DNA from: Sphingobacteriales bacterium
Lineage (GTDB): Bacteria; Bacteroidota; Bacteroidia; Chitinophagales; Chitinophagaceae
NCBI GenBank assembly: GCA_024640385.1
Contig: JAHEFC010000049.1
Span: 1-14,744, forward strand
Length of the DNA: 14,744 nucleotides
Reading direction: 5' to 3'
In this document: one piece after another, positions 1-14,744 of the stretch
Layout: the number at the start of each line of letters is the position of its first letter
How positions within the stretch are numbered: position 1 is the first letter of the stretch
The notes under the pieces: generated by a model
What the model saw: the letters and a program-made list of their open reading frames with translations, nothing else
Told to the model about the DNA's origin: nothing
Database searches by the model: none
Made by a program: the position numbers and the translations under genes

Positions 1-72
1 GTCAGAGAGCCAGAGAGTCGGAGAGGAAGTGTTTTGTTCTATCTCTCTGCCGTTCAGACTCTCTGGCTCTCT
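1..72. repeat. Tandem-unit hairpin, AGAGAGNN octamer family
   Basis: Positions 4-19 and 57-72 are perfect 16-bp reverse complements. The arms consist of degenerate 8-nt units of the form AGAGAGNN; the right arm read on the minus strand gives about four units. The 37-nt centre is partly complementary as well. The left edge may be cut by the window, so the full element could be longer. It shares its octamer style with the hairpin at 14505-14576. It could be the 3' hairpin of an unseen gene to the left, but no T-run follows it on the + strand. Confidence 0.85.
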
Positions 73-372
73 TTCCATTGGATACAATGGAAAACGGCGA
101 TCTTTCGATCGCCGTGTACACATCCAATAACCATCCGTAGTTATCAATATTTTTGACTGCTAAATGCTGCAGTAATTATCATTAATTATTACCCTATAAA
201 GGTAGATCTACGATAGTAGTTGTGCAAACCACCAAACGTTGAAATCCGCTCACTCATCGAATCCATGGAACCGGTAAACGCTAAACCACTGGTTGTCAAT
301 AAATGATTTTCGTTAGTAAAATTCCGTTGGGTCGTCACTCTTACGTAAATTAGCAGAACCCAACAGTTTTAC
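73..372. other. korA upstream intergenic region
   Basis: No convincing gene is seen in these 300 bases. Two small hairpins stand next to the repeat: CCATTG/CAATGG (75-80 and 85-90, 4-nt loop) and ACGGCGATC/GATCGCCGT (94-102 and 107-115, 4-nt loop). Further right are a 10-bp palindrome GTAGATCTAC (202-211) and an AT-rich stretch. The sequence TATTTTTG at 148-155 fits the Bacteroidota -7 consensus TAnnTTTG, but no TTG lies at the right distance upstream and the leader would be over 200 nt. I therefore do not call it as the korA promoter. The long leader could carry regulation, but I recognise no riboswitch. Confidence 0.5.
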
Positions 373-2217
373 ATGAATAGAAAAGACGAATTACTCCAGG
401 ATGTAGTGATAAAATTTGCAGGTGACAGTGGCGATGGTATGCAGTTGACTGGCAGCCAGTTCACCAATAACACAGCTTTGATGGGAATGGACCTGGCCAC
501 ATTCCCCGATTTCCCCGCTGAGATCCGGGCTCCATTGGGTACTATCCCCGGTGTGAGCGGATTCCAGCTCAGGTTTTCATCTTCTCCCGTATATACCCCT
601 GGCGATGAGTGCGATGTGCTGGTAGCCATGAATGCGGCCGCCCTGAAAACCAATATGAAAATGATCAAAAAAGGCGGTAAGATCATTGTGAATACGGATG
701 GTTTCGACGCCAAGAACCTCAGGCTGGCCAATTACGCTGAAGGAGACAACCCACTGGAGAATAATTCTCTTGCCAGTTACGAAGTCATTAAAATGGACGT
801 GACCAAGATGACAAGGGAAGCCCTGAAGGACTTTGCCATGGGTACCAAGGAAAAGGACAGGGCCAAGAACATGTTCGTGCTTGGATTTCTTTACTGGATG
901 TACAACAGGGAAATGGACAGTACCATCAGCTTTCTTAAAGATAAATTCGGCAAGAAAGATGATATCCTGAACAGTAACCTGAAAGTGTTACAGGCAGGAT
1001 ATAATTTTGGTGATACTACCGAAACATTTACAACACGCTATAAAGTAGAGAAGGCGAAGATGGAGCCCGGTACTTACCGTTCCATCATGGGCAACCAGGC
1101 CCTGGCATACGGACTGATCGCTGCTTCACAGAAAAGCGGTCTTCCTTTATTCCTCGGCTCTTACCCGATAACGCCCGCATCGGATATTCTTCATGAACTC
1201 AGCCGCTACAAGAATTTTGGTGTACGCACCTTCCAGGCGGAAGATGAGATCGCTGCGATTTCTTCGGCTATAGGTGCCAGTTATGGAGGTTCTCTTGCGG
1301 TAACAACTTCATCAGGTCCGGGTATCGCACTCAAAGGAGAAGCGATGGGCCTTGCAGTAATGATGGAGATCCCGCTGGTGATCGTCAACGTACAACGCGG
1401 CGGTCCTTCAACCGGATTGCCTACAAAAACTGAGCAGAGTGATCTGATGCAGGCATATTATGGAAGGAACGGTGAATGTCCCATGCCGATAGTTTCTGCA
1501 TCTACACCCAGCGATTGTTTCGCAACCGTATATGAAGCAGCAAAAATAGCAGTTCAGCATATGACCCCGGTGATCTGCCTTACAGACGGATATATCGCCA
1601 ATGGTGCAGAACCCTGGAAATTCCCCACTTCAGCCGACCTGGAAGAGATCAAGGTGAATTTCAAAAAACAGCTTGACGAAGGCGAAGAGAAACTTTTACC
1701 CTATCAAAGGGATGAGAAATTATCCAGGCCCTGGGCCATCCCGGGAACTCCCGGTCTTGAACACCGTATAGGTGGTCTTGAGAAACAGGATATTACCGGT
1801 AACGTAAGTTATGATCCGGATAACCACCAGCATATGGTGAATGTCAGGCAGGCCAAAGTAGATAAACTGGCAGATTATATTCCTGAACAAAAACTGGACA
1901 GCGGCCCTGCAAAAGGAAAAATGCTGGTGATCGGTTGGGGTTCAACCTATGGCGCTATTAAAAGCGCTTGCGCAGAATTGCAGGCCGAAGGCTATGAAGT
2001 GGCACATGCACATCTCCGCCATATCAGGCCATTCCCCAGGAACCTTGGGAACCTGATCAGGAACTATGAAAAAGTATTGATCCCAGAGATCAACAACGGC
2101 CAGCTGGTAAAGATCATTCGTGATCAATACCTGGTGGATGCCATTCCGTTCAATAAAGTGATGGGTATTCCTATTACAAAGTCGGAGTTGGTGGCGAAGA
2201 TTAAAACGATTATATAA
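373..2217 (+). CDS. korA: 2-oxoacid:ferredoxin oxidoreductase, fused gamma-alpha subunit (KorA type)
   Basis: This cytoplasmic subunit belongs to the enzyme that oxidatively decarboxylates 2-oxoglutarate (or another 2-oxoacid) to the acyl-CoA, passing electrons to ferredoxin. The 614 residues match the fused form. An N-terminal gamma domain (about 10-190) carries GDSGDGM at 17-23. The alpha pyrimidine-binding domain starts near 240, with SYPITPASDI at 263-272, QAEDE at 288-292, SSGPG at 313-317 and QRGGPSTGLPT at 341-351. A C-terminal transketolase-like domain begins near 516. The ATG at 373 gives the usual KorA N-terminus. The thiamine diphosphate-binding beta subunit (korB), normally the next gene, is absent: the gene ends in a hairpin and meets a convergent gene. 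Substrate preference (2-oxoglutarate versus other 2-oxoacids) cannot be proved from sequence alone. Confidence 0.92.
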   Translation: MNRKDELLQDVVIKFAGDSGDGMQLTGSQFTNNTALMGMDLATFPDFPAEIRAPLGTIPGVSGFQLRFSSSPVYTPGDECDVLVAMNAAALKTNMKMIKKGGKIIVNTDGFDAKNLRLANYAEGDNPLENNSLASYEVIKMDVTKMTREALKDFAMGTKEKDRAKNMFVLGFLYWMYNREMDSTISFLKDKFGKKDDILNSNLKVLQAGYNFGDTTETFTTRYKVEKAKMEPGTYRSIMGNQALAYGLIAASQKSGLPLFLGSYPITPASDILHELSRYKNFGVRTFQAEDEIAAISSAIGASYGGSLAVTTSSGPGIALKGEAMGLAVMMEIPLVIVNVQRGGPSTGLPTKTEQSDLMQAYYGRNGECPMPIVSASTPSDCFATVYEAAKIAVQHMTPVICLTDGYIANGAEPWKFPTSADLEEIKVNFKKQLDEGEEKLLPYQRDEKLSRPWAIPGTPGLEHRIGGLEKQDITGNVSYDPDNHQHMVNVRQAKVDKLADYIPEQKLDSGPAKGKMLVIGWGSTYGAIKSACAELQAEGYEVAHAHLRHIRPFPRNLGNLIRNYEKVLIPEINNGQLVKIIRDQYLVDAIPFNKVMGIPITKSELVAKIKTII

Positions 2218-2220
2218 ATA

Positions 2221-2328
2221 TTCCGGATTACGGATTGCGAATTCCGGATTCGATGAAATGAAAAAGAGGCCTAAACAAGCCTCTTTTTTATTTCATCGAA
2301 TCCGGAATTCGCAATCCGGAATCCGGAA
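2221..2328. repeat. Long tandem-unit hairpin filling a convergent gap
   Basis: The arms 2221-2270 and 2279-2328 are 50 nt each, match with only two mismatches, and are separated by an 8-nt loop. The outer part of each arm is built of CGGATT-containing units of about 11 nt (ATTCCGGATT, ACGGATTGCG and similar). The element begins 3 nt after the korA stop codon and ends directly at the stop codon of the convergent oxidoreductase gene, so essentially the whole gap is the repeat. Its centre is a bidirectional terminator. Confidence 0.95.
2261..2290. terminator. Bidirectional intrinsic terminator of korA and the convergent operon
   Basis: AAAAAGAGGC (2261-2270), loop CTAAACAA, then GCCTCTTTTTT (2279-2289). 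The stem has GC at its core and a T-run on both strands, so it can terminate korA and the minus-strand permease/oxidoreductase operon. It is nested in the centre of the 50-bp-arm hairpin. Confidence 0.85.
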
Positions 2329-3516
2329 TCAACTTACTTTTTCGATAATTTTCCCTGTAGTTTTATTCTTGAGTATCACTTTCTTCGCTCCGTAGTGGGT
2401 CATTTCCTCTTTTACCAGGTAGTGATCAGAATCGTATTCCACAAGATGACTGTCTTTTGACACTCCTGTTCGTCCTCTCCAGATATCCAGCACAACAGGC
2501 TCCCATAGTTTTGTTTTGGCCGATCTGTATGCTGCGTCCAGCACTGCATTCACTACGTAGCCATCGTAAAATGTTTCTTTAGGTGCTATGCCTTTTTCAA
2601 TGGCGTTGAACATTTCGGTGAACATGTGATTATAGCCCAGTTCGTTCAGCTCGTCTCCAACCGGGAACAGCCAGCCGCTGTTGCTTTCTGCTTTCTCGGC
2701 AACATAGTCGGCGCCTTTTCCGGTGGTGAACATTTCAAATCCGGTTCGCAGAAAACTGTTCACCCAAATGGTACCTTCCGTTCCCATCACTTCATCACGA
2801 AGGTCAAGGCCGCCGCGGAAAGTCCAGCTCACTTCAAACTGCGCAATGGATCCGTTCTCATATTTGATGAGTGCTATGGCGTGGTCTTCCGCATCTATCG
2901 GCTTAACCTGCGTATCGGCCCAGCACATCACTTCAACAGGTTTTATATCTTTCCCGATATAGCTCCTGGTGATCTCAACACAATGGCAGCCAAGATCCAG
3001 AATGCATCCGCCACCAGCCTGCTCTATATCCCAAAACCAATCAGAGTGGGGCCCGGGGTGGGTTTCGCGTGATTTTGCCCAGAGGATCCTTCCCAGTGCA
3101 CCGTTCTTTACGCTCTCATGAGCTTTCAGGAATTTTGGTGTGTATACCAGGTCTTCAAGGTAGCCATGAAAAATTCCGGCTGTTTCAACGGCTTCCAGCA
3201 TTCGTTTGGCTTCCGCAGCATTGCGGCCCAAAGGCTTGGTGGTGATCACCGCTTTTTTATGTTTGCAGGCCATCAGCACTGCTGTTTCGTGCAGGTTGTT
3301 GGGCAATGCAATGCAAACAACGTCAACATCCGGATGGGCAATGGAATCTTCCATATTCGTTGTCCAGTGCTGGCAACCATAATCCTGTGCAAACTTTTTT
3401 GCGCTTTCTTCGCGCCTTGAATAGATAGAGAACACCTGGTCTCTACTGCGTAAACCCTGGATGGAATCAGCATAAAATCTTCCAATAAATCCTGATCCCA
3501 GCATCGATACTCTCAT
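2329..3516 (-). CDS. Gfo/Idh/MocA family oxidoreductase
   Basis: This is a predicted cytoplasmic NAD(P)-dependent dehydrogenase of a sugar or polyol derivative. The N-terminal Rossmann domain (about 1-120) opens with GSGFIG at 7-12. The usual EKP motif reads TTKP (92-95): the catalytic-region Lys94 is kept but the Glu is replaced by Thr. The C-terminal beta-sheet domain includes GGGCILDLGCH, with Asp174 and His178 in family-typical positions. The 395-residue length is normal. The ATG lies 26 nt downstream of the permease stop, so the two are probably co-transcribed and work on the same imported compound. There is no signal peptide, unlike many Bacteroidota members that are exported. The substrate is unknown. 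The stop codon touches the right arm of the long hairpin. Confidence 0.88.
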   Translation of the reverse strand: MRVSMLGSGFIGRFYADSIQGLRSRDQVFSIYSRREESAKKFAQDYGCQHWTTNMEDSIAHPDVDVVCIALPNNLHETAVLMACKHKKAVITTKPLGRNAAEAKRMLEAVETAGIFHGYLEDLVYTPKFLKAHESVKNGALGRILWAKSRETHPGPHSDWFWDIEQAGGGCILDLGCHCVEITRSYIGKDIKPVEVMCWADTQVKPIDAEDHAIALIKYENGSIAQFEVSWTFRGGLDLRDEVMGTEGTIWVNSFLRTGFEMFTTGKGADYVAEKAESNSGWLFPVGDELNELGYNHMFTEMFNAIEKGIAPKETFYDGYVVNAVLDAAYRSAKTKLWEPVVLDIWRGRTGVSKDSHLVEYDSDHYLVKEEMTHYGAKKVILKNKTTGKIIEKVS

Positions 3517-3542
3517 GATATAGTTTTATGGCGGGTGAAAAA

Positions 3543-4775
3543 TTATTCGGGTACTGCTTCGCCTGTATTGGTATGAGCGGCTGAATGTTTATTGTCAGTG
3601 AAAAATATAACGAACAAGATCAGCACGGCCACTGAAATGCCCGCAGGAACCATCCATACGGATCTCCAGTCCACCGTACTCATAGACGTATAATGATCTT
3701 TTACATAACCTGAAAGAAGTGTTCCTATCCACATGCCAATACCATAGGTTGCCATGGTGATCATGCCCTGTGCCTGGCTCTGGATCTTTAGTCCTGCTTT
3801 ACTGTCAGTATAGATCTGCCCGGTTACAAAAAAGAAATCAAAACAGATGCCGTGCATGATGATACCGGCATATAACATCCAGATCCCTGCATCTGCATCG
3901 CCATAACCGAACAACATGAACCTGATGGCCCATGCGATCATGCCGAAGGCAATCATCCATTTAACGCCCAGTCTTTTGAAAAAGAATGGAATGAGCAGGA
4001 TGAAGAAGGCTTCGGAGAACTGACCGAAGGTCATATTGCTGGTCACGTTTTTCATGCCCGCCTCGGTCAGGTAAAGATTGGTGAAGCTGTAATAGAATGA
4101 GAGCGGAATACAGATCAGTACAGAAGCGATGAAGAATATGGTGAATGATCTGTCTTTGAACAGCACAAATGCATCTGCTCCCAGTATCTGTGCAAATGAG
4201 GCCTTGGTGCCTTTGGCTTTTGGCGGTGTATCGGGAAGGATAAAGCTGAGCAGCCCAAGCACTACTGAAGCCACTGCTGCCATCTTGAACGTGAGGGCCA
4301 GCTGATCCGTTGTGATGTTGAGTACTTTGTCGATCATCCAGCCCGTTGCGATCCAGCCTATGGTACCCAGCACGCGAATGGATGCGAATTCTTTACTCGG
4401 GTCCTGCATTTGCCTGAATGCCACTGCATTGGCCAGCGCCAGTGTAGGAGCATAACAGAGTGAATAGAGCAGGAGTACCCAATAGAAAGAACTTGCATTG
4501 CCTACCTGGGTGAGATAGTACAACAGGAAGGCGCCAACAATATGTAATACACCGAGTACTTTTTGTGCCGAGAAAAACCTGTCTGCGATCATGCCCACGA
4601 AAAATGGCGAAATAATGGTGGCAATGGCCATGGCGCTGTATGCCGCACCCACCTGAACACCATCTGCTCCCAGCACTTTGTCGAGGTATGTTCCCATGGT
4701 CACGTACCAAGACCCCCAGATGAAGAATTCCAGGAACATCATAGCCGATAGCTGAACGCGCACAATTGATCGCAT
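3543..4775 (-). CDS. MFS permease, nucleoside:H+ symporter (NupG/XapB) type
   Basis: This inner-membrane major facilitator protein has 410 residues and about 12 hydrophobic segments, with a central cytoplasmic loop near 180-200 (PDTPPKAKGTKAS). The opening segment with FLEFFIWGSWYVTMGTYL and the VGMIADRFF loop (about residues 60-68) resemble the nucleoside:H+ symporter branch. Bacteroidota relatives of this branch are often paired with Gfo/Idh/MocA oxidoreductases, as here. I therefore infer import of a nucleoside or sugar-like compound for the downstream enzyme. The ATG at 4775 places the first membrane segment directly at the N-terminus. Its 5' region is short because the 4812-4909 hairpin lies just upstream. 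Confidence 0.82.
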   Translation of the reverse strand: MRSIVRVQLSAMMFLEFFIWGSWYVTMGTYLDKVLGADGVQVGAAYSAMAIATIISPFFVGMIADRFFSAQKVLGVLHIVGAFLLYYLTQVGNASSFYWVLLLYSLCYAPTLALANAVAFRQMQDPSKEFASIRVLGTIGWIATGWMIDKVLNITTDQLALTFKMAAVASVVLGLLSFILPDTPPKAKGTKASFAQILGADAFVLFKDRSFTIFFIASVLICIPLSFYYSFTNLYLTEAGMKNVTSNMTFGQFSEAFFILLIPFFFKRLGVKWMIAFGMIAWAIRFMLFGYGDADAGIWMLYAGIIMHGICFDFFFVTGQIYTDSKAGLKIQSQAQGMITMATYGIGMWIGTLLSGYVKDHYTSMSTVDWRSVWMVPAGISVAVLILFVIFFTDNKHSAAHTNTGEAVPE

Positions 4776-4811
4776 GGTAGTTTTGGTTTAGGAAGGAAGA
4801 TAGTAAAAATC

Positions 4812-4909
4812 AGGATAGAGGCGAGAGGTGAGAGGCGAGAGGTTATCCAATTTTTTTCCTGTATCCTCTCGCCTCTCGCCTCTCACCTCTCGTCTCTCGT
4901 CTCTATCCT
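4812..4909. repeat. Tandem-unit hairpin, GCGAGAG heptamer family
   Basis: The left arm (4812-4842) reads AGGATAGAG followed by three 7-nt units of the type RYGAGAG. The right arm, read on the minus strand from 4909, has the same AGGATAGAG lead and five such units. The arms thus pair while differing by two unit copies. The right edge overlaps the last codons and stop of nth (stop at 4903-4905). Minus-strand transcripts leaving the hairpin meet TGATTTTTAC at 4801-4811, so the element can act as a terminator for nth. Confidence 0.92.
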
Positions 4910-5553
4910 CGCACCTTATGCAACTTCTGATAATATTTACACACCTCCCTCAACCCGCATTCCCCGCACTTGGGATTTCTTGCGAGGCACACATATCTTC
5001 CATGGAGGATCAGCCAGTGGTGTGCTTTATGGATCAGTTCTTTGGGGATATATTTGATCAGCTGCAATTCGGTCTGCAATGGTGTTTTGGCACCAGTGGT
5101 CAAACCTAGGCGTGCCGACACGCGAAACACATGCGTGTCCACGGCCATGTTGGGTTGCTGGTCGATCACTGAGGTGATCACGTTGGCCGTTTTTCTTCCA
5201 ACGCCCGGCAGTTTGACTAATTCGTCAACGGTCATGGGCACCTTTCCTCCAAAATCGCTCTGGAGCATCTGGGCCATACCAATAAGATGTTTGGTTTTGT
5301 TGTTCGGGTAGGAAATACTCCTGATCAGCGGGAAGAGTTCATCGAAGCTCGCTTTGGACAGGGATTCCGCATCGGGATATTTGTCGAATATGGCCGGTGT
5401 GGTCATATTCACCCGTTTGTCAGTGCACTGTGCGGAAAGGATCACAGCTACCAGCAATTGGTAGGGATTATCGTATAGAAGTTCGGTTTCTGCTTCGGGA
5501 ATATGCTCCTGGAAATAGGCCAGTACTTTTTTAAATAGTTCCTTTCTAACCAT
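4903..5553 (-). CDS. nth: Endonuclease III (DNA glycosylase/AP lyase)
   Basis: This base-excision repair enzyme removes oxidised pyrimidines and nicks the abasic site. The helix-hairpin-helix LPGVGRKTANV (115-125) contains the catalytic Lys121, and the catalytic Asp139 lies in VDTHVFRVSARLGL. The [4Fe-4S] cluster cysteines are Cys189, 196, 199 and 205 in the correct C-x6-C-x2-C-x5-C spacing. The length of 216 residues is normal. The ATG at 5553 is preceded by a -7-like element only 4 nt away, so the transcript may be leaderless. The end of the gene overlaps the outer bases of the GCGAGAG hairpin, so the final residues (VRG) are partly encoded by repeat sequence. Confidence 0.96.
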   Translation of the reverse strand: MVRKELFKKVLAYFQEHIPEAETELLYDNPYQLLVAVILSAQCTDKRVNMTTPAIFDKYPDAESLSKASFDELFPLIRSISYPNNKTKHLIGMAQMLQSDFGGKVPMTVDELVKLPGVGRKTANVITSVIDQQPNMAVDTHVFRVSARLGLTTGAKTPLQTELQLIKYIPKELIHKAHHWLILHGRYVCLARNPKCGECGLREVCKYYQKLHKVRG

Positions 5554-5557
5554 GCAG

Positions 5558-5565
5558 CAAAAATA
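5558..5565 (-). promoter_or_regulatory. Candidate -7 element of nth
   Basis: On the minus strand TATTTTTG fits the Bacteroidota -7 consensus TAnnTTTG exactly. It ends 4 nt before the nth ATG, so transcription would start at or near the start codon. The place where the -33 TTG should lie is occupied by the arm of the GCAGGTT hairpin, which offers no TTG on this strand. The promoter is either weak or was altered by the repeat. Confidence 0.4.
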
Positions 5566-5662
5566 GCAGGTTGCAGGTTACAGGTTACAGGTTGCAGGTG
5601 GCAGGTTGCAGGTTGCAGGTTGCAAGTGGCAGTGCAACCTGCAACCTGTAACCTGCAACCTG
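5566..5662. repeat. Tandem-unit hairpin, GCAGGTT heptamer family
   Basis: Positions 5567-5596 pair with 5633-5662 over 30 nt with one mismatch. Each arm is an array of 7-nt units (TTGCAGG with variants TTACAGG and TGGCAGG). The left side has about nine units and the right about four, so five extra units loop out or pair alternatively. The array touches the -7 element of nth. A 28-nt part (5596-5623) recurs exactly, inverted, inside gldA at 10019-10046. Confidence 0.95.
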
Positions 5663-5676
5663 TTATAAGAGTCTGT

Positions 5677-5695
5677 GGTAAAATCCTATTTTACC
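5677..5695. repeat. Small hairpin over the stop codon of the 75-aa gene
   Basis: GGTAAAAT (5677-5684) and ATTTTACC (5688-5695) form an 8-bp stem with a 3-nt loop that includes part of the stop codon (5686-5688). There is no following T-run, so it is not a standard terminator by itself. Its core (5679-5692) also occurs in the terminator at 6364-6399. Confidence 0.6.
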
Positions 5696-5913
5696 AGTGA
5701 TTCCTGCTCTGCATATTGCATAATAGAATCAATGGTGCTTTTTCTTGGAGCACAACGGATGCTATCCAGGTCTCTTTTAGAAGCTTTTAAAACTTCAAAC
5801 TTTTCTTTCAAGATCCAGTCTGATTCAATGGCTTCCATGGCCATTTTTGATTCTTCGGGGCTCATTTCGTTGTACAAAAACCTGATCATGTCTTCAGTCG
5901 TAAAGTGGTTCAT
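5686..5913 (-). CDS. Small conserved-type protein resembling an anti-sigma N-terminal module
   Basis: This acidic, helical 75-residue protein begins MNHFTTEDMIRFLYNEMSPE. An ATG eight codons further upstream (5937) is possible, but the shorter start fits the pattern of a helix starting with FTTEDMIRFLYNEMS. There is no signal peptide, membrane segment or zinc-binding His/Cys set; its only Cys is in IRCAPRKST. The pattern of an aromatic/leucine helix, then LYNEMSPEE, then a second helix ending LKEKFEVLKASKRDLD is like each of the two N-terminal repeats of the anti-sigma factor at 12780-13922. It sits between the FtsB-like gene and nth on the same strand. I infer a small regulatory or adaptor protein; no activity is known to me. 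Confidence 0.7.
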   Translation of the reverse strand: MNHFTTEDMIRFLYNEMSPEESKMAMEAIESDWILKEKFEVLKASKRDLDSIRCAPRKSTIDSIMQYAEQESLVK

Positions 5914-6068
5914 AATCCGCGATTTACCAGTTAACAATGGTTGGTTAACGGTTTTCAGGGAAGTGGATTTATTAAGTTTCCAGGGACGAGGTCAGGTGCT
6001 CTTTGAATGGTTTGGGTCGGTTACCTTATAAAAACGGGGTTATTGCACCAATATTGTGCAGGCAGGAA

Positions 6069-6356
6069 TTATTTTTCTTCTATAACATACAGATCCTCAT
6101 TGTCTTTCTTCATGAGGTATTTCTCACGGGCAACTTTTTCCAGAGAGGCAGTATTCAGCCTCATGGCGTTCAATTCGTCCCTGGTTTCCTGTATCCTTTC
6201 CTGGTAATAAGCTTTCTTTTCTTTGAGTTCTTTCAGTTCTTTTTTGCGTTTGTAGCTGAGAATCATATCATTATGATCGAAAAATGCCAGCCAAACGACA
6301 AAAAAACTGGTTGCGAGAAAGTATTTATTAGTTATCCAGCGGGGTAAAAACTGCAT
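6069..6356 (-). CDS. FtsB/DivIC-like septum formation initiator
   Basis: This is a bitopic inner-membrane divisome protein. In 95 residues it has a short cytoplasmic N-terminus, one membrane segment (about 12-30, YFLATSFFVVWLAFF), then a charged coiled coil (about 33-75, rich in K/E with heptad leucines). Near the C-terminus LEKVAREKYLMKKDNEDLYVI is the typical end of FtsB/DivIC proteins (ARExYxMxKxxExxY). Its partners would be FtsL- and FtsQ-like proteins. The gene is often found just after enolase in Bacteroidota; here a 1.36-kb FG-GAP gene lies between. The ATG follows directly on the T-run of a strong hairpin, leaving no room for an ordinary ribosome binding site. Confidence 0.87.
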   Translation of the reverse strand: MQFLPRWITNKYFLATSFFVVWLAFFDHNDMILSYKRKKELKELKEKKAYYQERIQETRDELNAMRLNTASLEKVAREKYLMKKDNEDLYVIEEK

Positions 6357-6399
6357 AAAAACGGTTTCCGGCTTAAAAATAGGATTTTAAGCCGGAAAC
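6357..6399 (-). terminator. Terminator between the FG-GAP gene and the FtsB-like gene
   Basis: A perfect 15-bp stem (6364-6378 with 6385-6399, GTTTCCGGCTTAAAA on the + strand) with a 6-nt loop is followed on the minus strand by CGTTTTT. That T-run ends one base before the FtsB-like ATG at 6356. The structure looks like a normal terminator for the FG-GAP gene, but its position also makes it a possible attenuator or translation-control hairpin for the next gene. Confidence 0.85.
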
Positions 6400-6425
6400 T
6401 GTATGACTAATTGATTTTTATGTTT

Positions 6426-7787
6426 TTAGGGGAGGGAAGCACCCTGCATCAGTCCTTTTGAGGAGCCCTTGATCACCATGAGTTTCCATGGTGTTCCGGT
6501 ACCTTTGATCACTCCAGCCAATACATCAGCATATCCATCGCCGTTGGTGTCGCCGGCAGAAGCCACCGACTGGCCAATAAAACTGCCGGGGTATTTGGTT
6601 TTATCGATCATGATAAAGTCATTGATGGTGCCAGTGGGGGAGCCATAAAACACGAATACGTCACCATTGGGGTCCTGGGGGTTATAGCCATAGGCTCCCA
6701 CGATGATCTCTCCATAACCGTCGCCATTGATATCTCCGGCTGAGGCTACCGAGATGCCCATATTCCCATCAATTTTACTGCCGGTGAAAGTCCAGTCTGG
6801 ATATAAGCTGAATCCATTGGCTGACCCTTCAAAAACATAGATCTTACCAACATTGCTCAACCCATCGTCGTACCGGTTGGCACCTACGATCACATCTGAA
6901 AAACCATCTCCATTCACATCCCCGCCTGTTGCCACAGAGTTGCCAAAGGCTGCTTCAGCCTGGTTGCTTTCCCCGGTCCATGCAGGCGATTGTGTCATGC
7001 CCATATAAGTGCCAAGATAAAGATATGCCCGGCCTTCGTTCACCTGGCCATGGTCATAACCCGGAGCGCCAATGATCACATCACTGAATCCGTCCTTATT
7101 TACATCGCCGGCACAGGCCACAGATTTTCCAAAAAATGCATTCACCTGATCACCTTCCGCAGTGAAGAAAGGAGTTTTTGAAAGCCCCGATGCGGAACCC
7201 AGGTAAATGAATGCACGACCTTCATTGGTCTCGCCATTGTCAAAATAACTTGCGCCAACAATAACATCGGCATATCCGTCTTTATTTACATCTCCCGCAG
7301 AAGAAACTGAAACGCCGTAGAATGCATTGGCCTGGTTGCTTTCCATGGTCCAGCCCGGGCTGGCAGACAATCCGGAAGGTGAACCATAATATACAAAGGC
7401 ACCGCCTTCGTTTTCTTCTCCGTTGGAATATCGTGATGCACCAATGATCACATCGAAATATCCATCACCATTCACATCTCCTGCATTGGCAATGGATTCA
7501 CCAAAGTTTGTTCCTCCTTTTCCTTCTGTGTTCCACACGGCAGTGTTACCAAGACCATTTCCAGTGCCCAGGAAGAGTTGAACTTTTCCATCTTTACTTA
7601 CTCCGAACTCATTGGTGAAAATACTTACGAGCACATCGGCATAACCATCACCGTTCACGTCACCCGCAGGCGACAACGAATAACTGGCGCTGACGTTTTG
7701 GTCCCGGGATCTACTGAATGCAAACAATGCTGTGGCAACGAGGGTAACGAGTAGCCCTTTAAACAGGAAACTTTTTGCGTTTTGCAT
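6426..7787 (-). CDS. Exported FG-GAP (integrin-alpha-like) seven-bladed beta-propeller protein
   Basis: This is a predicted secreted or surface protein of 453 residues. An N-terminal hydrophobic segment (about 6-24) acts as signal peptide. Seven calcium-binding motifs of the type DxNxDGxxD/E occur at 43, 103, 166, 228, 290, 352 and 413, spaced 60-63 residues. Each is followed by a VIVGA-like strand and a Y-x-G-S-x-x-G-L turn. Seven even blades suggest a closed propeller. In the sixth motif the last Asp is Glu. The protein ends soon after the last blade, and I see no type IX secretion C-terminal domain. Ligand and role are unknown; adhesion or carbohydrate binding are typical guesses. The gene sits between enolase and the FtsB-like gene and is bounded on both sides by terminators, so it is its own transcription unit. 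Confidence 0.88.
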   Translation of the reverse strand: MQNAKSFLFKGLLVTLVATALFAFSRSRDQNVSASYSLSPAGDVNGDGYADVLVSIFTNEFGVSKDGKVQLFLGTGNGLGNTAVWNTEGKGGTNFGESIANAGDVNGDGYFDVIIGASRYSNGEENEGGAFVYYGSPSGLSASPGWTMESNQANAFYGVSVSSAGDVNKDGYADVIVGASYFDNGETNEGRAFIYLGSASGLSKTPFFTAEGDQVNAFFGKSVACAGDVNKDGFSDVIIGAPGYDHGQVNEGRAYLYLGTYMGMTQSPAWTGESNQAEAAFGNSVATGGDVNGDGFSDVIVGANRYDDGLSNVGKIYVFEGSANGFSLYPDWTFTGSKIDGNMGISVASAGDINGDGYGEIIVGAYGYNPQDPNGDVFVFYGSPTGTINDFIMIDKTKYPGSFIGQSVASAGDTNGDGYADVLAGVIKGTGTPWKLMVIKGSSKGLMQGASLP

Positions 7788-7946
7788 AACTCAAGCTTTT
7801 CTAATGTGGTAATTAAGGCTTGGTCTTGCAGAGGGGTATGGAAAAACTTAAGTGTTTCGGCAGGATAGGGTACACAAGGTACACCACGTATTTGACATTT
7901 CATAACTATGATAGCGTGAAACCCGCGCCGTATAAGGTTATGAAAC
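7788..7946. other. Gap between enolase terminator and FG-GAP gene
   Basis: About 160 bases with no convincing gene. It must contain the promoter of the FG-GAP gene, because the enolase terminator lies upstream. The best -7-like sequence on the minus strand is TAAGTTTT (one mismatch to TAnnTTTG), with a TTG 24 nt upstream, which is slightly too far. I do not call a promoter. Confidence 0.4.
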
Positions 7947-7975
7947 AAAAAAGCCACACTAAATGCATGGCTTTT
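7947..7975 (-). terminator. Enolase terminator
   Basis: AAAAGCCA (7949-7956) and TGGCTTTT (7968-7975) form an 8-bp stem with an 11-nt loop. On the minus strand the stem runs into six Ts. It lies about 22-50 nt after the enolase stop codon. Confidence 0.75.
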
Positions 7976-7996
7976 AAGAATTTATATTTTTAAAAA

Positions 7997-10224
<2,228 letters not shown>

Positions 10225-10227
10225 GAC

Positions 10228-10259
10228 CAAAGATAAGGATAAGTGTGCTAGCCGGTTAA
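10228..10259 (-). promoter_or_regulatory. Candidate gldA-eno promoter
   Basis: On the minus strand TATCTTTG (10235-10228) matches TAnnTTTG exactly. TTA (10259-10257) stands in for the -33 TTG at a spacing of 21 nt. The -7 element ends 3 nt before the ATG, so the transcript would be leaderless or nearly so. The -33 position lies inside a direct repeat (10250-10277) that could be an operator. Confidence 0.55.
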
Positions 10260-10277
10260 TGTGTGAGCCGGTTAATG
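10250..10277. promoter_or_regulatory. Direct repeat AGCCGGTTAATG x2, possible operator
   Basis: AGCCGGTTAATG occurs at 10250-10261 and 10266-10277, a 16-nt period, 26-53 nt upstream of the gldA start. The proximal copy covers the predicted -33 element. Related CCGGTTAA/TTAACCGG sequences also occur at 10503-10510 and in the perfect palindrome TTAACCGGTTAA at 10602-10613. A binding protein is inferred only from the layout. Confidence 0.4.
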
Positions 10278-10309
10278 CATTGGATAAATAAGTAAGAGGA
10301 AAATTGAAA

Positions 10310-10552
10310 TCATACCTTCAGCCAGGATGGTGATGCATCAGTTGGTTGGTTCACCCGCAACAAGTACCCGTCTGGGTCTTGAAATGCTATGCTGGTCATT
10401 CCCAGATGAGAACTTCTTGGACCATCAAACGGAATTCCATTGGCGTTCAGCTTCTCTATCACCATCTGCAGGTTGTCAGTGATAAAACTCGTAACAATAC
10501 CCTTAACCGGCAAATGGGTTGAAATATTAAAATCCAGTCCTTCGGTTCCTGA
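10310..10552 (-). pseudogene. VOC/glyoxalase-family remnant (C-terminal half)
   Basis: The open frame downstream of a TAA at 10553-10555 encodes about 80 residues. They end in a typical VOC second module: a helix with DNLQMVIEKLNANGIPF, then MTSIAFQDPDGYLLRVNQPT, where DPDG..L.V is the family metal-site strand. Complete VOC proteins are about 115-140 residues; the N-terminal half is missing and there is no ATG. The frame shifted by one contains MQKISGEVLVVI just upstream, which might be the preceding strand displaced by a frameshift. That is a weak suggestion. The remnant lies between the L,D-transpeptidase terminator and the gldA promoter and is probably not translated, although a TTG start at 10513 could give a 67-aa peptide. 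Confidence 0.65.
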
Positions 10553-10624
10553 TTACCACAAGCACTTCCCCGCTTATCTTTTGCATTCTCCAGCTAACTT
10601 ATTAACCGGTTAACACACCAAATA

Positions 10625-10666
10625 AAAAAGAGGCCGGTTCAAAACTAATTGAACCGGCCTCTTTTT
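10625..10666 (-). terminator. Terminator of the L,D-transpeptidase gene
   Basis: A perfect 18-bp stem (10625-10642 with 10649-10666), containing GAGGCCGGTTCAA, has a 6-nt loop and A/T runs on both sides. It lies 8 nt after the transpeptidase stop codon. The T-run on both strands would allow bidirectional action. Confidence 0.92.
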
Positions 10667-10674
10667 ATTTTCAG

Positions 10675-11169
10675 TTATTCCTGTATGTCTACTTCAGTGC
10701 CCACCGGCAACATATCGTATACTTCGAAGATGTCGCTGTACTTGGTGGAGATGCACCCATTGGTCCAGTTCAGGTATTTGTCAACTGCAAATTCTTCATT
10801 GGGCCTGGTACCATGGATACCAATACCACCACCTATTTTAGCAGAGGCTGGTATGGCGCCTGCAGATTTTCTTGATCTGAATTTTCTAACACTTTCTTCA
10901 TTGGGATAATCCAGCAGGATGAACTTGCCCCATTGATCGTGATTTTTTTTAAGCACGATCTTGAAATGTCCGTTGGGAGTAAGACGGTCTCCTTCCATTT
11001 TTTTGTCAGACTGGTTATTGCTGCCAAAAACAACAGGATAAGAAGCCAGCCAACCGTCGTCGTCATATACCTGCATAACGTACTCCGACTTGTCGATCAC
11101 CACTTTATAGTGTGGTGCCGGCGGCTTCAGGAAGAAGTTAAAAAATAGGCCAAAAATGAGCAATAGCAT
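10675..11169 (-). CDS. L,D-transpeptidase (YkuD domain) family protein
   Basis: This is a predicted periplasmic peptidoglycan cross-linking or protein-anchoring enzyme of 164 residues. A short hydrophobic N-terminus (about 1-14, MLLLIFGLFFNFFL) probably serves as a membrane anchor. The YkuD domain runs from about 21 to 162: strand YKVVIDKSEYVMQVY, TPNGHFKI, then IGIHGTRPN with His119, and WTNGCIST with the nucleophile Cys139. The residue after the GCI motif, Arg in many YkuD enzymes, is Ser here; this resembles the YafK/DpaA side of the superfamily, which has GCI followed by non-Arg residues. An in-frame stop nine codons upstream limits start choices, and the ATG at 11169 is used. It has its own promoter-like element and terminator, so it is a single-gene unit. 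Confidence 0.88.
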   Translation of the reverse strand: MLLLIFGLFFNFFLKPPAPHYKVVIDKSEYVMQVYDDDGWLASYPVVFGSNNQSDKKMEGDRLTPNGHFKIVLKKNHDQWGKFILLDYPNEESVRKFRSRKSAGAIPASAKIGGGIGIHGTRPNEEFAVDKYLNWTNGCISTKYSDIFEVYDMLPVGTEVDIQE

Positions 11170-11198
11170 AGGATAAAGAGTTTGAATGCTAAGTTATT

Positions 11199-11228
11199 CA
11201 AAGGTCCTCCCATTTGCAATACCCACAA
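11199..11228 (-). promoter_or_regulatory. Candidate promoter of the L,D-transpeptidase gene
   Basis: On the minus strand TTG (11228-11226), 19 nt, then GACCTTTG (11206-11199). This fits the Bacteroidota pattern TTG-N19-TAnnTTTG with one mismatch. The predicted start site leaves a leader of about 25 nt before the ATG at 11169. Confidence 0.5.
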
Positions 11229-11259
11229 TAAAATAACAGTTAATTCGTAGCTAAAATTT

Positions 11260-11667
11260 CTAGTGTGAGATCACCGGGTCAAGGCCCTTTGCCTGCGCTA
11301 TCATATCCTTAATAGATTCTACCGAAGGAACCTTTCCGCTCAGGCCGTATTTCTCATTGGTTTCCATGAGTTTAACATGAAGATTTTCAGCGTTCCGGGT
11401 AGCGAATTCTTTGACCGAATCCACTCCGGCGGCTTCCAGTAGTTCAGAAAACTGGGCTGCAACGCCTTTTATCCTGAAAAGATCGGCATGATTCACCCAG
11501 GTCAGCACCAGTGATTCGGGAATACCGGTTTTAGCGGCAATATTCATCCTGCCTTTTTTTGTTGCCCCATGCTCCAGCAGGTCTGATGTAGTGTGTATGC
11601 CTATGGTACCAAGCTTATCTGCGTAGGTAGGTCCGATGCCTTCGATTTCAACAACTTTATAACTCAT
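11260..11667 (-). CDS. DUF4332 helix-hairpin-helix protein
   Basis: This cytoplasmic 135-residue protein starts at the ATG at 11667 (MSYKVVEIEGIGPTYADKLG); an upstream in-frame TTG would add three residues. Two helix-hairpin-helix-like elements are visible: IEGIGPTYADKLGTIGIHTTSDLL (about 8-31) and FRIKGVAAQFSELLEAAGVDSVKEFA (about 64-89). This matches the DUF4332 layout. Such motifs usually bind nucleic acid backbones non-specifically, as in RuvA and polymerase accessory domains. The actual role of this family is unknown to me. It lies alone between the octamer/dodecamer hairpin and the transpeptidase. Confidence 0.82.
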   Translation of the reverse strand: MSYKVVEIEGIGPTYADKLGTIGIHTTSDLLEHGATKKGRMNIAAKTGIPESLVLTWVNHADLFRIKGVAAQFSELLEAAGVDSVKEFATRNAENLHVKLMETNEKYGLSGKVPSVESIKDMIAQAKGLDPVISH

Positions 11668-11741
11668 ACTTGACAATTTTAACGGCCATCAAGCTAGTTA
11701 AAAATGGTGAAAAAGGAGAAGTGATTTGCGTCATGAAAAAA

Positions 11742-11906
11742 CAGAGACGCAGAGGGGGACGCAAAGACGCAGAGAGGAACGCAGAGACGCGGAGGGGGAC
11801 ACAGAGACGCAGAGTGATTTCTGTGTCCCCCTCCGTGTCTCTGCGTCCCCCTCCGCGCCCCCCTCTGCGTCTCTGTGTCCCTCTCTGCGTCTCTGTGTCC
11901 CCCTCA
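11742..11906. repeat. Largest tandem-unit hairpin, alternating 8+12-nt units
   Basis: The left arm 11742-11814 alternates CAGAGACG-like octamers with CAGAGGGGGACG-like dodecamers (8,12,8,12,8,12,8 and a partial). After TGATTT (11815-11820) the right arm 11821-11906 carries the same alternation on the other strand, with about one more dodecamer and several base changes. The right edge coincides with the stop codon of the beta-barrel gene (11904-11906). The arms are very purine/pyrimidine-biased, so the element could also form triplex-like structures. No T-run is evident, so it is a poor standard terminator. Confidence 0.94.
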
Positions 11907-12755
11907 GAAGGTACTGAACCTGATCCCTGCCATCCAGGGATATTGTTCCACACCGTATTTGTGCAGGGGATTGATAGAATATGATCCGTAGAATTTAACA
12001 GGACCCAGCCCCACTTCTGCTACCCAGGCTGCTTTCCAGCGATCCAGGTTGAAATCAGTTTTCTGTTTTTGCTTTCCTCTTTCGTCGCTGATCTGTTTCT
12101 GGCGGGCGCTGTATAAAATACCGCCGCTGACGCCTACGCTGAGCTGAAGACCGCCGTTCCTGCTGTCTGGGTTGGTGCAAAAATTCACCATGAACGGTGC
12201 AGTGAAATAATCCGCCGCTAACTTGTTCTTGGAGAACAATACATCGTCGCGTTTCACATAAACTGTACCACCATCAACATAGGTCAGTGGAGTTTTATAG
12301 TAGTAGTTGGTGTTTTCAATACCAAAACCGTATTTCAGGTTGATCACATGCTTGTGCAGATTGAGTTTCTGCATGAAAAACCAAAGGTTGAAGTTGGAGA
12401 TCCCCAATCCTTTAATGGAAAAATCTCCTGAATTGAGCGGTGTTCCATTGGGGTTCTGAAGAAATGCCTGCGCTTCCGCTCCACCATAATCTGTATTGTC
12501 AGTAAAGCCTGAATAGCCAATATCGAAGATCAGCCAGTTTGTGGTGATATTGGATTTTTTGTAATACTTCTTGTTGTAACTGTAGTCTTTGTCTTTGTAG
12601 ACATCGTATTCAGATTTATCACCCCCTTTTTTGATGATGATGATGCTGCCTACGCGGATGGTGTCTCCTTCCTGTGCCGTCCTGGTTGAATCTTCTTGGG
12701 CAAATCCTGCCTGGAAACATGCTCCCATGAGCATGATCAATAATGCTTTTTTCAT
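11904..12755 (-). CDS. Outer-membrane beta-barrel protein of an ECF sigma operon
   Basis: The 283-residue protein starts with a signal peptide (1-19, cleavage after FA, before QEDSTR). A polar stretch follows with VGSIIIIKKGG and a Tyr/Lys/Asp-rich segment (about 50-67). The rest (about 68-283) shows alternating amphipathic strands ending in Phe (MAGIRFSTF), as in outer-membrane barrels of the PorT/OmpW-like kind. It is the third gene after the sigma and anti-sigma genes, 24 nt downstream of the anti-sigma stop, so it is likely co-transcribed and perhaps a sigma-controlled envelope component. Its precise function is not recognised. Its stop codon abuts the 8+12 hairpin. Confidence 0.8.
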   Translation of the reverse strand: MKKALLIMLMGACFQAGFAQEDSTRTAQEGDTIRVGSIIIIKKGGDKSEYDVYKDKDYSYNKKYYKKSNITTNWLIFDIGYSGFTDNTDYGGAEAQAFLQNPNGTPLNSGDFSIKGLGISNFNLWFFMQKLNLHKHVINLKYGFGIENTNYYYKTPLTYVDGGTVYVKRDDVLFSKNKLAADYFTAPFMVNFCTNPDSRNGGLQLSVGVSGGILYSARQKQISDERGKQKQKTDFNLDRWKAAWVAEVGLGPVKFYGSYSINPLHKYGVEQYPWMAGIRFSTF

Positions 12756-12779
12756 ACATCCTGTTTTTAATAACTGTTT

Positions 12780-13922
12780 TTAACGCGGTATTCCTATTTC
12801 AAAGTTTGCAACTTTCACCAACGGTTTATCAAGATCCGGGTTGGTTACTTTATTGTAGATTCTGTTTGCTTTTCTTACTATACCCCTCAATCCCTTGCGC
12901 TGCCGGCCTTCTTCCTGCATGGCATCCATATCATCTTCATGACCAGTTCCATTCAATGCTTCAGTGGCATAATTCGTTTTCACGTTCATCACTACTGCAG
13001 GCTGTACATAAGGTTCAGGTGCCGTTACGGATTCCTCTGCTTTTTTTGTCAAAAGATCTTCCGTACTGATCCTGGTTTCATTCTTCTCCACCGCTGCGAT
13101 CTGCTCTGTGTTATTATCGGCTTTACCAATCTGGCTCAACTGATTCTCTTGTACTGATGGTGCCTGTTTCAGCTCAACATGCTTAGGTGCCGTCTTCGAT
13201 CCTGTTGCTGAAAGGACCACCTCGTTTTTATTCGTTTGTCCCTTGGCGTTAATTTCCGCAGTTTCCGCGACTGTCTCCCCTGCAGATACGGTGCCGGCAT
13301 CTGCCTTGCTTTCTGTTGACCCGCTCCGGCTGCTGTTATCTTTCTTCATATCCCCAGTGTCCCCCGCTTGTGCAATAGGCTGTTCAATATTTTTCAGGGT
13401 ATCATCCTGGTTGCTATTGATCCACAGCAGCCCCGCGATCAACAATACTGCTGCTGCAACAGCATAACGAATCCAGCGGATGGAAATAACGGCGGCGGGT
13501 TTCTTGCCGGTACGGTATAGCGAATTCTTATCAGGGAAGATGATCTGTTCTTCGGGAAGCCTGGTTTTTTTCAGCCACTCAAAATTGGCTGCTGCTTCAG
13601 GATGAGATCCGTTATAGATCTCAAGGGCTTTCCTTTCTTCCTGGCCGATCTCGTTATCGATGAAGAGTACCTGGTATTCTTCGTAATTGTTTTCGTTGAC
13701 GAGGCCCTTTTCTTCATGGCGGTATAATTCTTCCAGCCCTTCCATCTTCACCTCTTCGATATCAAGCCTGGTATCGAGGAAAACCTGTAATTCCGCCTTC
13801 AGGCCGGGATTCTTTTCAATGAAAGCATCCACTTCTGATTTTTCTGCAGCGGTCAACTCCTGGTCGACATACAGCAGGAAATACTCCTCGTAATTGTCCT
13901 TATTGATGGGTTGACGTTTCAT
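12780..13922 (-). CDS. Single-pass anti-sigma factor with duplicated N-terminal module
   Basis: The protein has 380 residues. The cytoplasmic part (1-150) contains two copies of a 59-residue module, at 10-68 and 79-137, aligned without gaps: NYEEY(F/Q)..L(Y/F)(V/I)D.E at the start and a TRL..E...LYR end. A membrane segment follows at about 151-168 (IRYAVAAAVLLIAGLLWI). The periplasmic part (170-335) is a low-complexity Ala/Glu/Lys/Thr-rich stalk. The conserved-looking tail (about 338-380) is basic and ends FEIGIPR. No zinc-binding HxxxCxxC is present, so it is a zinc-less anti-sigma type. It begins 2 nt after the sigma stop codon, indicating translational coupling and a sequestering role for that sigma factor. 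The assignment rests on context and architecture. Confidence 0.83.
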   Translation of the reverse strand: MKRQPINKDNYEEYFLLYVDQELTAAEKSEVDAFIEKNPGLKAELQVFLDTRLDIEEVKMEGLEELYRHEEKGLVNENNYEEYQVLFIDNEIGQEERKALEIYNGSHPEAAANFEWLKKTRLPEEQIIFPDKNSLYRTGKKPAAVISIRWIRYAVAAAVLLIAGLLWINSNQDDTLKNIEQPIAQAGDTGDMKKDNSSRSGSTESKADAGTVSAGETVAETAEINAKGQTNKNEVVLSATGSKTAPKHVELKQAPSVQENQLSQIGKADNNTEQIAAVEKNETRISTEDLLTKKAEESVTAPEPYVQPAVVMNVKTNYATEALNGTGHEDDMDAMQEEGRQRKGLRGIVRKANRIYNKVTNPDLDKPLVKVANFEIGIPR

Positions 13923-13924
13923 GA

Positions 13925-14410
13925 TCAGATTACATTTTCCGGTTTGACTAAATAATTCTTCAGCTGGATCCTCGCACGGTGGAGGTAAACCTTCACCTGG
14001 CTTTCGCTCAGTCCCATGATCTTGCCGATCTCCTCATAACTATATCCTTCATAGTCTTTCAGCATCACCAAACACCTTTGTGTTTCATTCAAACGGTTCA
14101 GCGCTTCGTTCAGTATTTTTTTCAGGTTGTGCTGCTGTTGGTCGGTCACTTTATCCTGCTCACTGAATTCTTCTTTCAGGCTGATCCTTTTCACTTTCCT
14201 GATGTGGTCGATCATCTGGTTATGCGCTACGGTAAAAAGATAGGCTTTTGCCGTAGTGGCATCCACATGCTCCCTGTTCCGCCACATTTTCTCGAAAGCA
14301 GACTGCACCACATCCCGGGCGTCGTCTTCGTGCCTGAGGTTTTTCAGGATGAACCGGTAAACGTTATCCGCATACCGGGTTACACACTCATTGTAATCTC
14401 TTTCAGTCAT
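13925..14410 (-). CDS. ECF-type RNA polymerase sigma factor
   Basis: This transcription initiation factor of the sigma-70 ECF group has 161 residues. Region 2 (about 10-73) includes RYADNVYRFI, EDDARDVVQSAFEKMW and the AYLFTVAHNQMIDHIRK helix. Region 4 (about 98-152) includes LNETQRCLVMLKDYEGYSYEEIG and the DNA-reading helix LSESQVKVYLHRAR. The start at 14410 (MTERDYNECV) is chosen although the frame stays open to 14596. The upstream part would read through a hairpin and has no sigma-like sequence, and an ECF-type promoter lies at 14459-14486, inside that stretch. It is followed by its anti-sigma gene with a 2-nt gap. Confidence 0.93.
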   Translation of the reverse strand: MTERDYNECVTRYADNVYRFILKNLRHEDDARDVVQSAFEKMWRNREHVDATTAKAYLFTVAHNQMIDHIRKVKRISLKEEFSEQDKVTDQQQHNLKKILNEALNRLNETQRCLVMLKDYEGYSYEEIGKIMGLSESQVKVYLHRARIQLKNYLVKPENVI

Positions 14411-14458
14411 TGGTTTGTTCTGGTCTAAAATTACTCTTCTGTCGTTTCTTATGCTAGT

Positions 14459-14486
14459 AATACGAGCAAGAAGAAGGAATGTTACA
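14459..14486 (-). promoter_or_regulatory. ECF-type promoter of the sigma/anti-sigma/barrel operon
   Basis: On the minus strand TGTAAC (14486-14481) is followed after exactly 16 nt by CGTATT (14464-14459). An AAC-ending -35 box and a CGT -10 box at this spacing are typical of ECF sigma promoters, which the sigma factor often recognises to drive its own operon. The expected start site lies about 40 nt upstream of the ATG at 14410. Autoregulation is inferred. Confidence 0.65.
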
Positions 14487-14504
14487 GGCGGATTAATTTT
14501 TTTT

Positions 14505-14576
14505 AGAGAGTCTGAGAGCCAGAGAGTAAGAGAGGCAAAGCCCTTGCTCTCTGCCTCACTTACTCTCAGACTTTCT
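14505..14576. repeat. Tandem-unit hairpin, AGAGAGNN octamer family (second copy)
   Basis: The left arm is a run of octamers (AGAGAGTC, TGAGAGCC, AGAGAGTA, AGAGAGGC). The right arm, read on the minus strand, gives AGAAAGTC, TGAGAGTA, AGTGAGGC, AGAGAGCA. The arms pair with several mismatches; AGTCTGAGAG (14509-14518) with CTCTCAGACT (14563-14572) is perfect. The element lies just upstream of the ECF-type promoter and shares its unit type with positions 1-72. Confidence 0.88.
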
Positions 14577-14744
14577 GAATATTGCATTCCGTGCACAAAA
14601 AAACCGGGTCACCCCGGTCATTAATTTATCGCATTCCCCACATTTCATTCCCCCACTACTTGTCCCGACTTCATCGGGATTCATCACACTCCCCCCACAT
14701 TCATCACATTCTTATCAGGTGCCTGGTGACTGCTTCCAGGATCG
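14577..14744. other. Right-edge region with terminator and C-rich repeats
   Basis: No complete gene is present. After the terminator described separately come C/A-rich, loosely repeated phrases (CATTCCCCACA, TCATTCCCCCAC, TTCATCACACTCCCCCCACA) and a TCCCGA/TCGGGA hairpin (stem of 6, loop of 5) near 14670. On the minus strand a short frame from the window edge reads ILEAVTRHLIRM and stops at 14704-14706. It may be the C-terminus of a gene cut by the window, but 12 codons are not enough to call it. Confidence 0.4.
14597..14618 (-). terminator. Minus-strand terminator of an unseen upstream gene
   Basis: ACCGGG (14603-14608), loop TCAC, CCCGGT (14613-14618). On the minus strand the stem is followed by seven Ts (14603-14597). 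It implies a minus-strand gene ending to the right and separates that gene from the sigma operon. Confidence 0.75.

Follow-up and report, generated by a model that had tools for sequence, protein, structure and literature searches.

Inward-facing pairs of short-unit tandem arrays in the intergenic gaps of a Sphingobacteriales genome

Short-unit tandem arrays in bacterial DNA have usually been handled one unit at a time. Among long simple sequence repeats, heptamers are the commonest long units in most genomes, and slippage has been proposed for them (Mrazek 2007, as cited in PMC4679880 and PMC4692102). Rehm 2015 (PMC4692102) reported GGGAATC heptamers in Xanthomonas and GGGGA(C/T)T heptamers in Nostoc, which are intergenic and number in the hundreds per genome. 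These repeats are rare between divergent genes; sense-strand copies lie near stop codons, and antisense-strand copies upstream of start codons. Two Xanthomonas genomes contain 70 and 75 convergent pairs, Nostoc contains few pairs, and in a second species 83% of the Xanthomonas repeats have their gene context preserved (Rehm 2015). TAACTGA heptamers, for which horizontal transfer is suspected, occur in Beggiatoaceae, cyanobacteria and Bacteroidetes (MacGregor 2015, PMC4679880). Here we describe hairpins with arms of tandem units in a stretch of 14,744 nucleotides (nt) from a Sphingobacteriales bacterium (contig JAHEFC010000049.1), together with the strand polarity that such paired arrays obey. 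A preliminary description of this stretch knew no published name for them and left a literature check to be made; the architecture itself has already been described by Rehm 2015.

The stretch, called the window below, is an entire contig (C538), and its position 1 is the contig end. It belongs to a draft genome (G000) of 4.08 Mb in 585 contigs, which is 94% complete. Other G-numbers denote comparison genomes, and L-numbers denote sampled loci. Open reading frames (ORFs) are longest-ORF calls made here, and are least reliable where a genome is GC-rich.

Strand polarity of paired arrays

Arrays of the same unit that lie no more than 120 nt apart are arranged head to head, the G-rich strand directed inward, and this is the case across many units. 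For the unit GCAGGTT, the 114 named loci among the matches listed contain 43 pairs within this distance that face inward (forward, then reverse) and 2 that face outward; both outward cases are overlapping edge matches, and 39 pairs run in the same direction. At distances of 121 to 3000 nt these loci give 12 inward and 16 outward pairs, and the polarity rule is therefore local. Within 120 nt in G000, the inward to outward counts are 14:2 for GCAGGTT, 12:0 for AGAGAGTC, 10:0 for ACGCAGAG, 2:0 for AGAGGCG and 1:0 for AAAAGTC.

The same polarity appears when hairpins of many units are taken together. The left arm has more G than C in 88 of 93 hairpins and less in 5, in a count that may include some arrays twice (some G000 loci overlap); the counts for inverted repeats and for pairs within 120 nt exclude or deduplicate these. 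The period is 7 in 61 of the 93, and periods of 8 and 20 are also present. Three of the five exceptions are a near-palindromic 15-mer, GGGACCTTGGAGGTA, which breaks the rule as would be expected of a unit that is nearly self-complementary. This unit stands in tandem at four sampled loci of G000: L022 10045-10122, L036 10487-10537, L060 9-51 and L084 1260-1308.

Plain inverted repeats in the same DNA have no such bias: the left arm is richer in G in 32 and richer in C in 41, with 11 equal, and the corresponding counts for inverted repeats that touch tandem repeats are 67 and 7, with 3 equal (Fisher p 8e-10). Plain inverted repeats with a T tail give 16:8. The polarity holds in the congener G026, in G149 and G099 of a distant genus and, with small numbers, in every named phylum. 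In arrays without a partner, too, the G-rich strand mostly runs into the gap (92 of 129 pooled; 57 of 76 near stop codons and 35 of 53 near start codons), in a count that omits 11 ties, arrays inside ORFs or near contig ends, those with a G-C difference below 3, and those with an inverted partner. No paper stating a polarity rule across units was found in a literature search that covered subscription journals thinly, and its novelty is thus unproven.

Arrays, units and gene context

The preliminary description had placed hairpins with tandem-unit arms in six gaps of the window, and inverted repeats of tandem units are indeed present at all six. Four pass a strict tandem-array scanner with an inverted partner (2220-2330, 4817-4904, 5566-5663 and 11745-11905); the edge copies at 1-72 and 14505-14576 are weaker and fall below its threshold. 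The scanner found no arrays in 20 dinucleotide shuffles of the window. When folded as RNA, each of the six hairpins, edge copies included, was better than all of 200 shuffles.

No strand is assigned to any of the six. At the contig end, an 8-nt tandem-unit hairpin of the AGAGAGTC type occupies 1-72, with arms at 4-29 and 47-72 (fold z -4.7). The hairpin at 2220-2329, made of the 7-nt unit CGGATTN, has 51-nt arms that are 96% complementary (z -18.1) and takes up all the space between the stop codons of two convergent genes; its arms enclose an ordinary terminator-like stem, AAAAAGAGGC/GCCTCTTTTTT, at 2261-2289. Behind nth lies a hairpin of the 7-nt unit AGAGGCG (4812-4909; z -8.9), whose edge overlaps the nth stop codon. 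The arms of the 7-nt GCAGGTT hairpin at 5563-5666 (z -9.4) hold 9.6 and 4.3 units, which bears out the earlier remark that copy number differs between arms. A 20-nt (8+12) unit, CAGAGACGCAGAGGGGGACG, builds the hairpin at 11741-11905, which overlaps the stop codon of gene 11904-12755 (z -14.3 for the segment folded, 11740-11880). A second 8-nt hairpin of the AGAGAGTC type, at 14502-14579 (z -6.9), lies upstream of a gene for an ECF sigma factor.

A seventh array, on the minus strand at 10019-10046, consists of four GCAGGTT units and stands alone within an ABC-transporter ORF (9313-10230). Since it has the unit of the hairpin at 5566-5662, the statement that only the edge copies share a unit was inexact. 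It was considered as an insertion, and no net insertion is evident because most full-length homologues likewise have 303 amino acids; one homologue carries the name GldA in its source record. The claim that array edges abut stop codons stands at 2217/2329, 4903 and 11904; at 5686 the distance is about 20 nt, and no stop codon was placed at the edge copies. Terminator-like stems between array arms, of the intrinsic kind in which a U run directly follows a GC-rich stem, are found at 2220-2329 and at L024, L067 and L094, and do not appear to be typical of the arrays. An ordinary bidirectional terminator-like hairpin without any array lies between ORFs at 10620-10671.

Such arrays are frequent throughout the sampled genome. 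The strict scan of 40 sampled stretches of G000 (257 kb) found 31 arrays, 17 of them with an inverted partner, and none in shuffles of these stretches. A looser scan of the window and the 40 stretches (271.8 kb) gave 54 array groups, about one per 5 kb, of which 9 are inside ORFs; the window, with 7 arrays in 14.7 kb, is above the mean of this sample. Rfam returned 48 matches at E <=0.1, mostly microRNA models on long stems, and none at a family's gathering score; a tRNA search found none. Arrays as points of assembly breakage were also considered, and 2 of 80 contig ends lie at arrays against about 3.2 expected.

The recurrent units of G000 are GCAGGTT, AGAGAGTC, the CAGAGACG 20-mer, CGGATTN, AGAGGCG, AAAAGTC, an AACCGG 8/16-mer and the near-palindromic 15-mer. 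Overlapping sites in this genome number 772 for GCAGGTT (361+411, up to 2 mismatches) and 133 for CAGAGAGTC (65+68), and ACRCAGAG has 140 sites (75+65, up to 1 mismatch). The preliminary description had called the units unrelated in sequence; each is instead a recurrent family, with 133 to 772 overlapping matches per unit. Its view is supported in that centres and flanks differ between copies, same-unit arms can be unequal, and arm complementarity mostly ends at the array edge.

Units are replaced quickly between relatives, as the preliminary description had foreseen. Neither GCAGGTT nor the ACRCAGAGACRCAGAG/ACRCAGAG pattern of the CAGAGACG unit was found in any of 20 congeners, and ACRCAGAG has one or two sites in 3 of 24 other genomes. 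Across 198 genomes of the order, GCAGGTT is confined to four (G000 382 sites, G149 243, G099 173, G072 2) and is absent from 34 other genomes of the same family and from four other genomes of the G099/G149 genus. AGAGAGTC has 153 sites in G000, 14 in G149 and 4 in G099, with single sites in three others, like its reversed control. No genome had more than 2 sites for the reversed units of GCAGGTT or AGAGAGTC; reversing ACRCAGAG only rotates the unit and so yields no control. The congener G026 chiefly contains arrays of a self-complementary unit, AACGTTN (L110-L129; 21 arrays in 400 kb). Other genomes have few arrays or none: G005 0 in 82 kb and G022 3 in 160 kb, none partnered, among congeners, and G014 3 in 200 kb without a partner and G019 0 in 200 kb among outgroups. 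Downstream of nth, G000 has its AGAGGCG hairpin and G023 a GTTAGAG/GTTAGGA hairpin, each overlapping the stop codon, and 15 congeners have no hairpin (17 readable loci including G000 and G023; G021 is unreadable). The nth proteins of both carriers end ...RG (window 4903-4905; L049 2122-2133), unlike those of the 15 congeners.

Beyond the genus, the GCAGGTT unit is present in other families of the order, and an exact 26-nt GCAGGTT array occurs in at least 114 stretches of public genomes, several genomes being represented repeatedly. Those listed come from Bacteroidota, Chloroflexota, Acidobacteriota, cyanobacteria (Moorena), Desulfobacterota and Planctomycetota, with labels assigned here.

In G000 the arrays lie close behind genes. 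In the unbiased set (n=52) array edges are at a median of 4.5 nt from flanking stop codons, and in the pattern loci (n=62) at 3 nt; start codons are about 38 nt away. Among gaps of at least 40 nt, arrays are present in 17 of 27 convergent, 18 of 57 tandem and 4 of 30 divergent ones. Elsewhere the median distance to stop codons is 20 nt in G026, 31 nt in G149 and G099 together, and, for the 114 loci among the matches listed, 4 nt in the 30 from named Bacteroidota and 2 nt in the 15 from named Chloroflexota (8.5 nt to starts in the latter). Of 43 single arrays in G000, 35 have the sense orientation relative to the upstream or nearer gene. R-loops formed by G-rich sense RNA behind stop codons would fit this bias, but are not adopted as a general reading because the bias is lacking in the tandem gaps of other genomes (32 of 67).

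Possible origins of the pairs

The best explanation, to which we assign a probability of about 0.42, is growth by slippage combined with intrastrand template switching of the G-rich strand. The arrays would be long-unit simple sequence repeats, mostly of 7 or 8 nt, that multiply in bursts within single lineages and settle in gaps directly behind stop codons. Replication slippage may lengthen the arms, its loops escaping mismatch repair, which is limited for loops above about 3 nt (PMC4060949). The G-rich strand under synthesis would then leave its template, fold back onto the new array, copy it and rejoin downstream, a template switch of the quasipalindrome kind; growth of the array would be bounded by coding sequence at one side and by promoters at the other. 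Pairs would always have the G-rich strand inward because, under this proposal, only that strand folds back.

The preliminary description had suggested slippage with template switching, and this has fared unevenly. In favour are the excess of arrays and pairs over shuffled sequence, the unequal same-unit arms around unrelated centres, the exchange of units between congeners even at one gap, the short range of the polarity, the nearness of arrays to stop codons in G000 and the orientation of single arrays. The arrays, their pairing, the turnover of units, the nearness to stop codons in G000 and the polarity are observations, whereas slippage, fold-back and the special part of the G-rich strand are inferences. 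Unit variants are mirrored between arms with a moderate excess over shuffled unit order when pairs are pooled (z 2.85 for 25 pairs in G000 and 5.18 for 38 pairs in named genomes). Long perfect palindromes are few (L334, L332 and L022), the arms at L334 matching at 42 of 42 positions. L334 1498-1595, C183 and C443 of G000 appear to share one run of 8-nt unit variants, possibly as copies of one array.

Several observations weigh against slippage and fold-back. Mirrored unit order is found in only 2 of 55 single pairs at p<0.05, and unit-by-unit mirroring is therefore not supported as a general rule. A simple fold-back copy of the whole region would extend into the flanks, but complementary runs of at least 4 are rare there: G000 has them in 2 of 37 flanks on the outer side and 2 of 14 on the inner side, and elsewhere the counts are 1 of 51 and 0 of 21. 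No measurement explains why the G-rich strand alone should switch, and AAAAGTC and AGAGAGTC have few G runs. The abundance of the same heptamer in the distant genus of G099 and G149 was not predicted. Finally, near-palindromic CGGATTC gives 8:6 in G000, where the outward cases displayed overlap one another and are still counted.

A rather unlikely alternative is that the arrays are selected RNA elements: stem-loops at mRNA 3' ends, formed from any tandem unit, that would shield those ends or act as bidirectional terminators or insulators of transcription. The strong folds of all six hairpins, the preference for convergent gaps in G000 and the terminator-like stems centred in four hairpins are consistent with such a role, as is the finding that G4-forming repeats in Xanthomonas coincide with starts or stops of transcripts at a higher rate than control repeats do (Rehm 2015). 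However, a role in gene regulation could not be identified for those repeats (Rehm 2015), and close relatives do without arrays, at 15 of the 17 readable nth gaps and in the scanned DNA of G005 and of the outgroup G019. The array groups inside ORFs also argue against this role, and nothing in an RNA hairpin requires the G-rich arm to precede the other; the bias in T-tailed plain inverted repeats is only 16:8.

It is also unlikely, though the polarity would be its footprint, that arrays in many phyla are written by one process that works at the 3' end of the G-rich strand regardless of unit, with each lineage having its own units. Such a process might extend a broken end from both sides and join the products, as in fused telomeres, or might be a fold-back of the G strand only.

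Pairing might instead be the sum of independent arms, each array starting at a gene edge with fixed orientation. The bias of single arrays into the gap and the rarity of pairwise mirroring favour this idea. Nonetheless, it appears quite improbable: the genome has many units and yet both arms carry the same one, and the orientation bias is 71% in single arrays against about 95% in pairs. From this difference, single arrays may be remnants of pairs.

REPs are moved by RAYT. The arrays could by analogy be non-autonomous mobile elements moved by a sequence-specific enzyme (REP/RAYT-like), or could be written by a short-template reverse transcriptase of the telomerase or DRT10 kind. The all-or-none spread of GCAGGTT in the order, the enrichment of AGAGAGTC in the same distant genomes, the exact GCAGGTT arrays in several phyla among the matches listed and the likeness of inward G-rich strands to fused telomeres are points in favour, and DRT10 makes tandem-repeat DNA (PMC12632851). 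Even so, this is the most doubtful of the readings, given that at least eight units in one genome would require equally many templates, that centre and flanks are not conserved, and that none of the candidate enzymes searched for follows the arrays. The preliminary description had suggested that nucleases, reverse transcriptases or REP transposases might do so. As judged by presence alone in 13 to 20 genomes, RAYT-type Y1_Tnp is found in 17 of 20 genomes whatever their arrays, including G005; RVT_1 has no match in the carriers G000, G026 and G023 and is present in array-poor G005 and G014 (DRT-specific models were outside the search); SbcD is above cut-off in 8 of 15, with and without arrays alike; and RNase H is in 14 of 15.

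If one polarity rule spans many units and phyla, a single strand-specific process that makes the arrays may exist, and it could be sought in cultured carriers such as Neolewinella persica, Niastella caeni and Aequorivita. Such a process, if real, would also account for the breaks and wrong annotations that recur at gene ends in these genomes.

Comparison with described repeats

These arrays belong to a known class, of which the form with many, rapidly replaced units is a variant; what deserves further study is the polarity rule. Like the arrays of Rehm 2015, those of the window's genome have 7-nt tandem units, many copies in gaps and convergent pairs. G000 also shares their sense-strand position no more than 50 nt from stop codons, but the sense bias is not seen in other genomes. 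Unlike the Rehm-type arrays, with one unit per genome, there are at least eight units in G000 and other units in its congeners. The units of that type, GGGAATC and GGGGAYT, have runs of at least 3 G and form quadruplexes; of the units here, GCAGGTT and AGAGGCG have only GG, and AGAGAGTC not even that. No polarity rule over many units and phyla is stated in the available text of Rehm 2015.

The TAACTGA repeats (PMC4679880) share the 7-nt period and the scattering of one unit over distant lineages, but they are direct repeats, mostly just upstream of start codons, with one inverted case. The heptanucleotide elements of Geobacter metallireducens (PMC2700814) are alike in being many-copy tandem heptamers, one class of which is drawn as a folded pair; they differ in being read as regulator binding sites or RNA elements. 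For the repeats of Mrazek 2007, neither pairing nor polarity is mentioned where that work is cited in PMC4679880 and PMC4692102. REP and BIME sequences resemble the present arrays as inverted short repeats in gaps with many copies, but the fixed palindrome is absent here and the presence of a RAYT transposase does not track the repeats. Repeat addition of the telomerase or DRT10 type differs in turn, as the array carriers G000, G026 and G023 are without an RVT_1 match.

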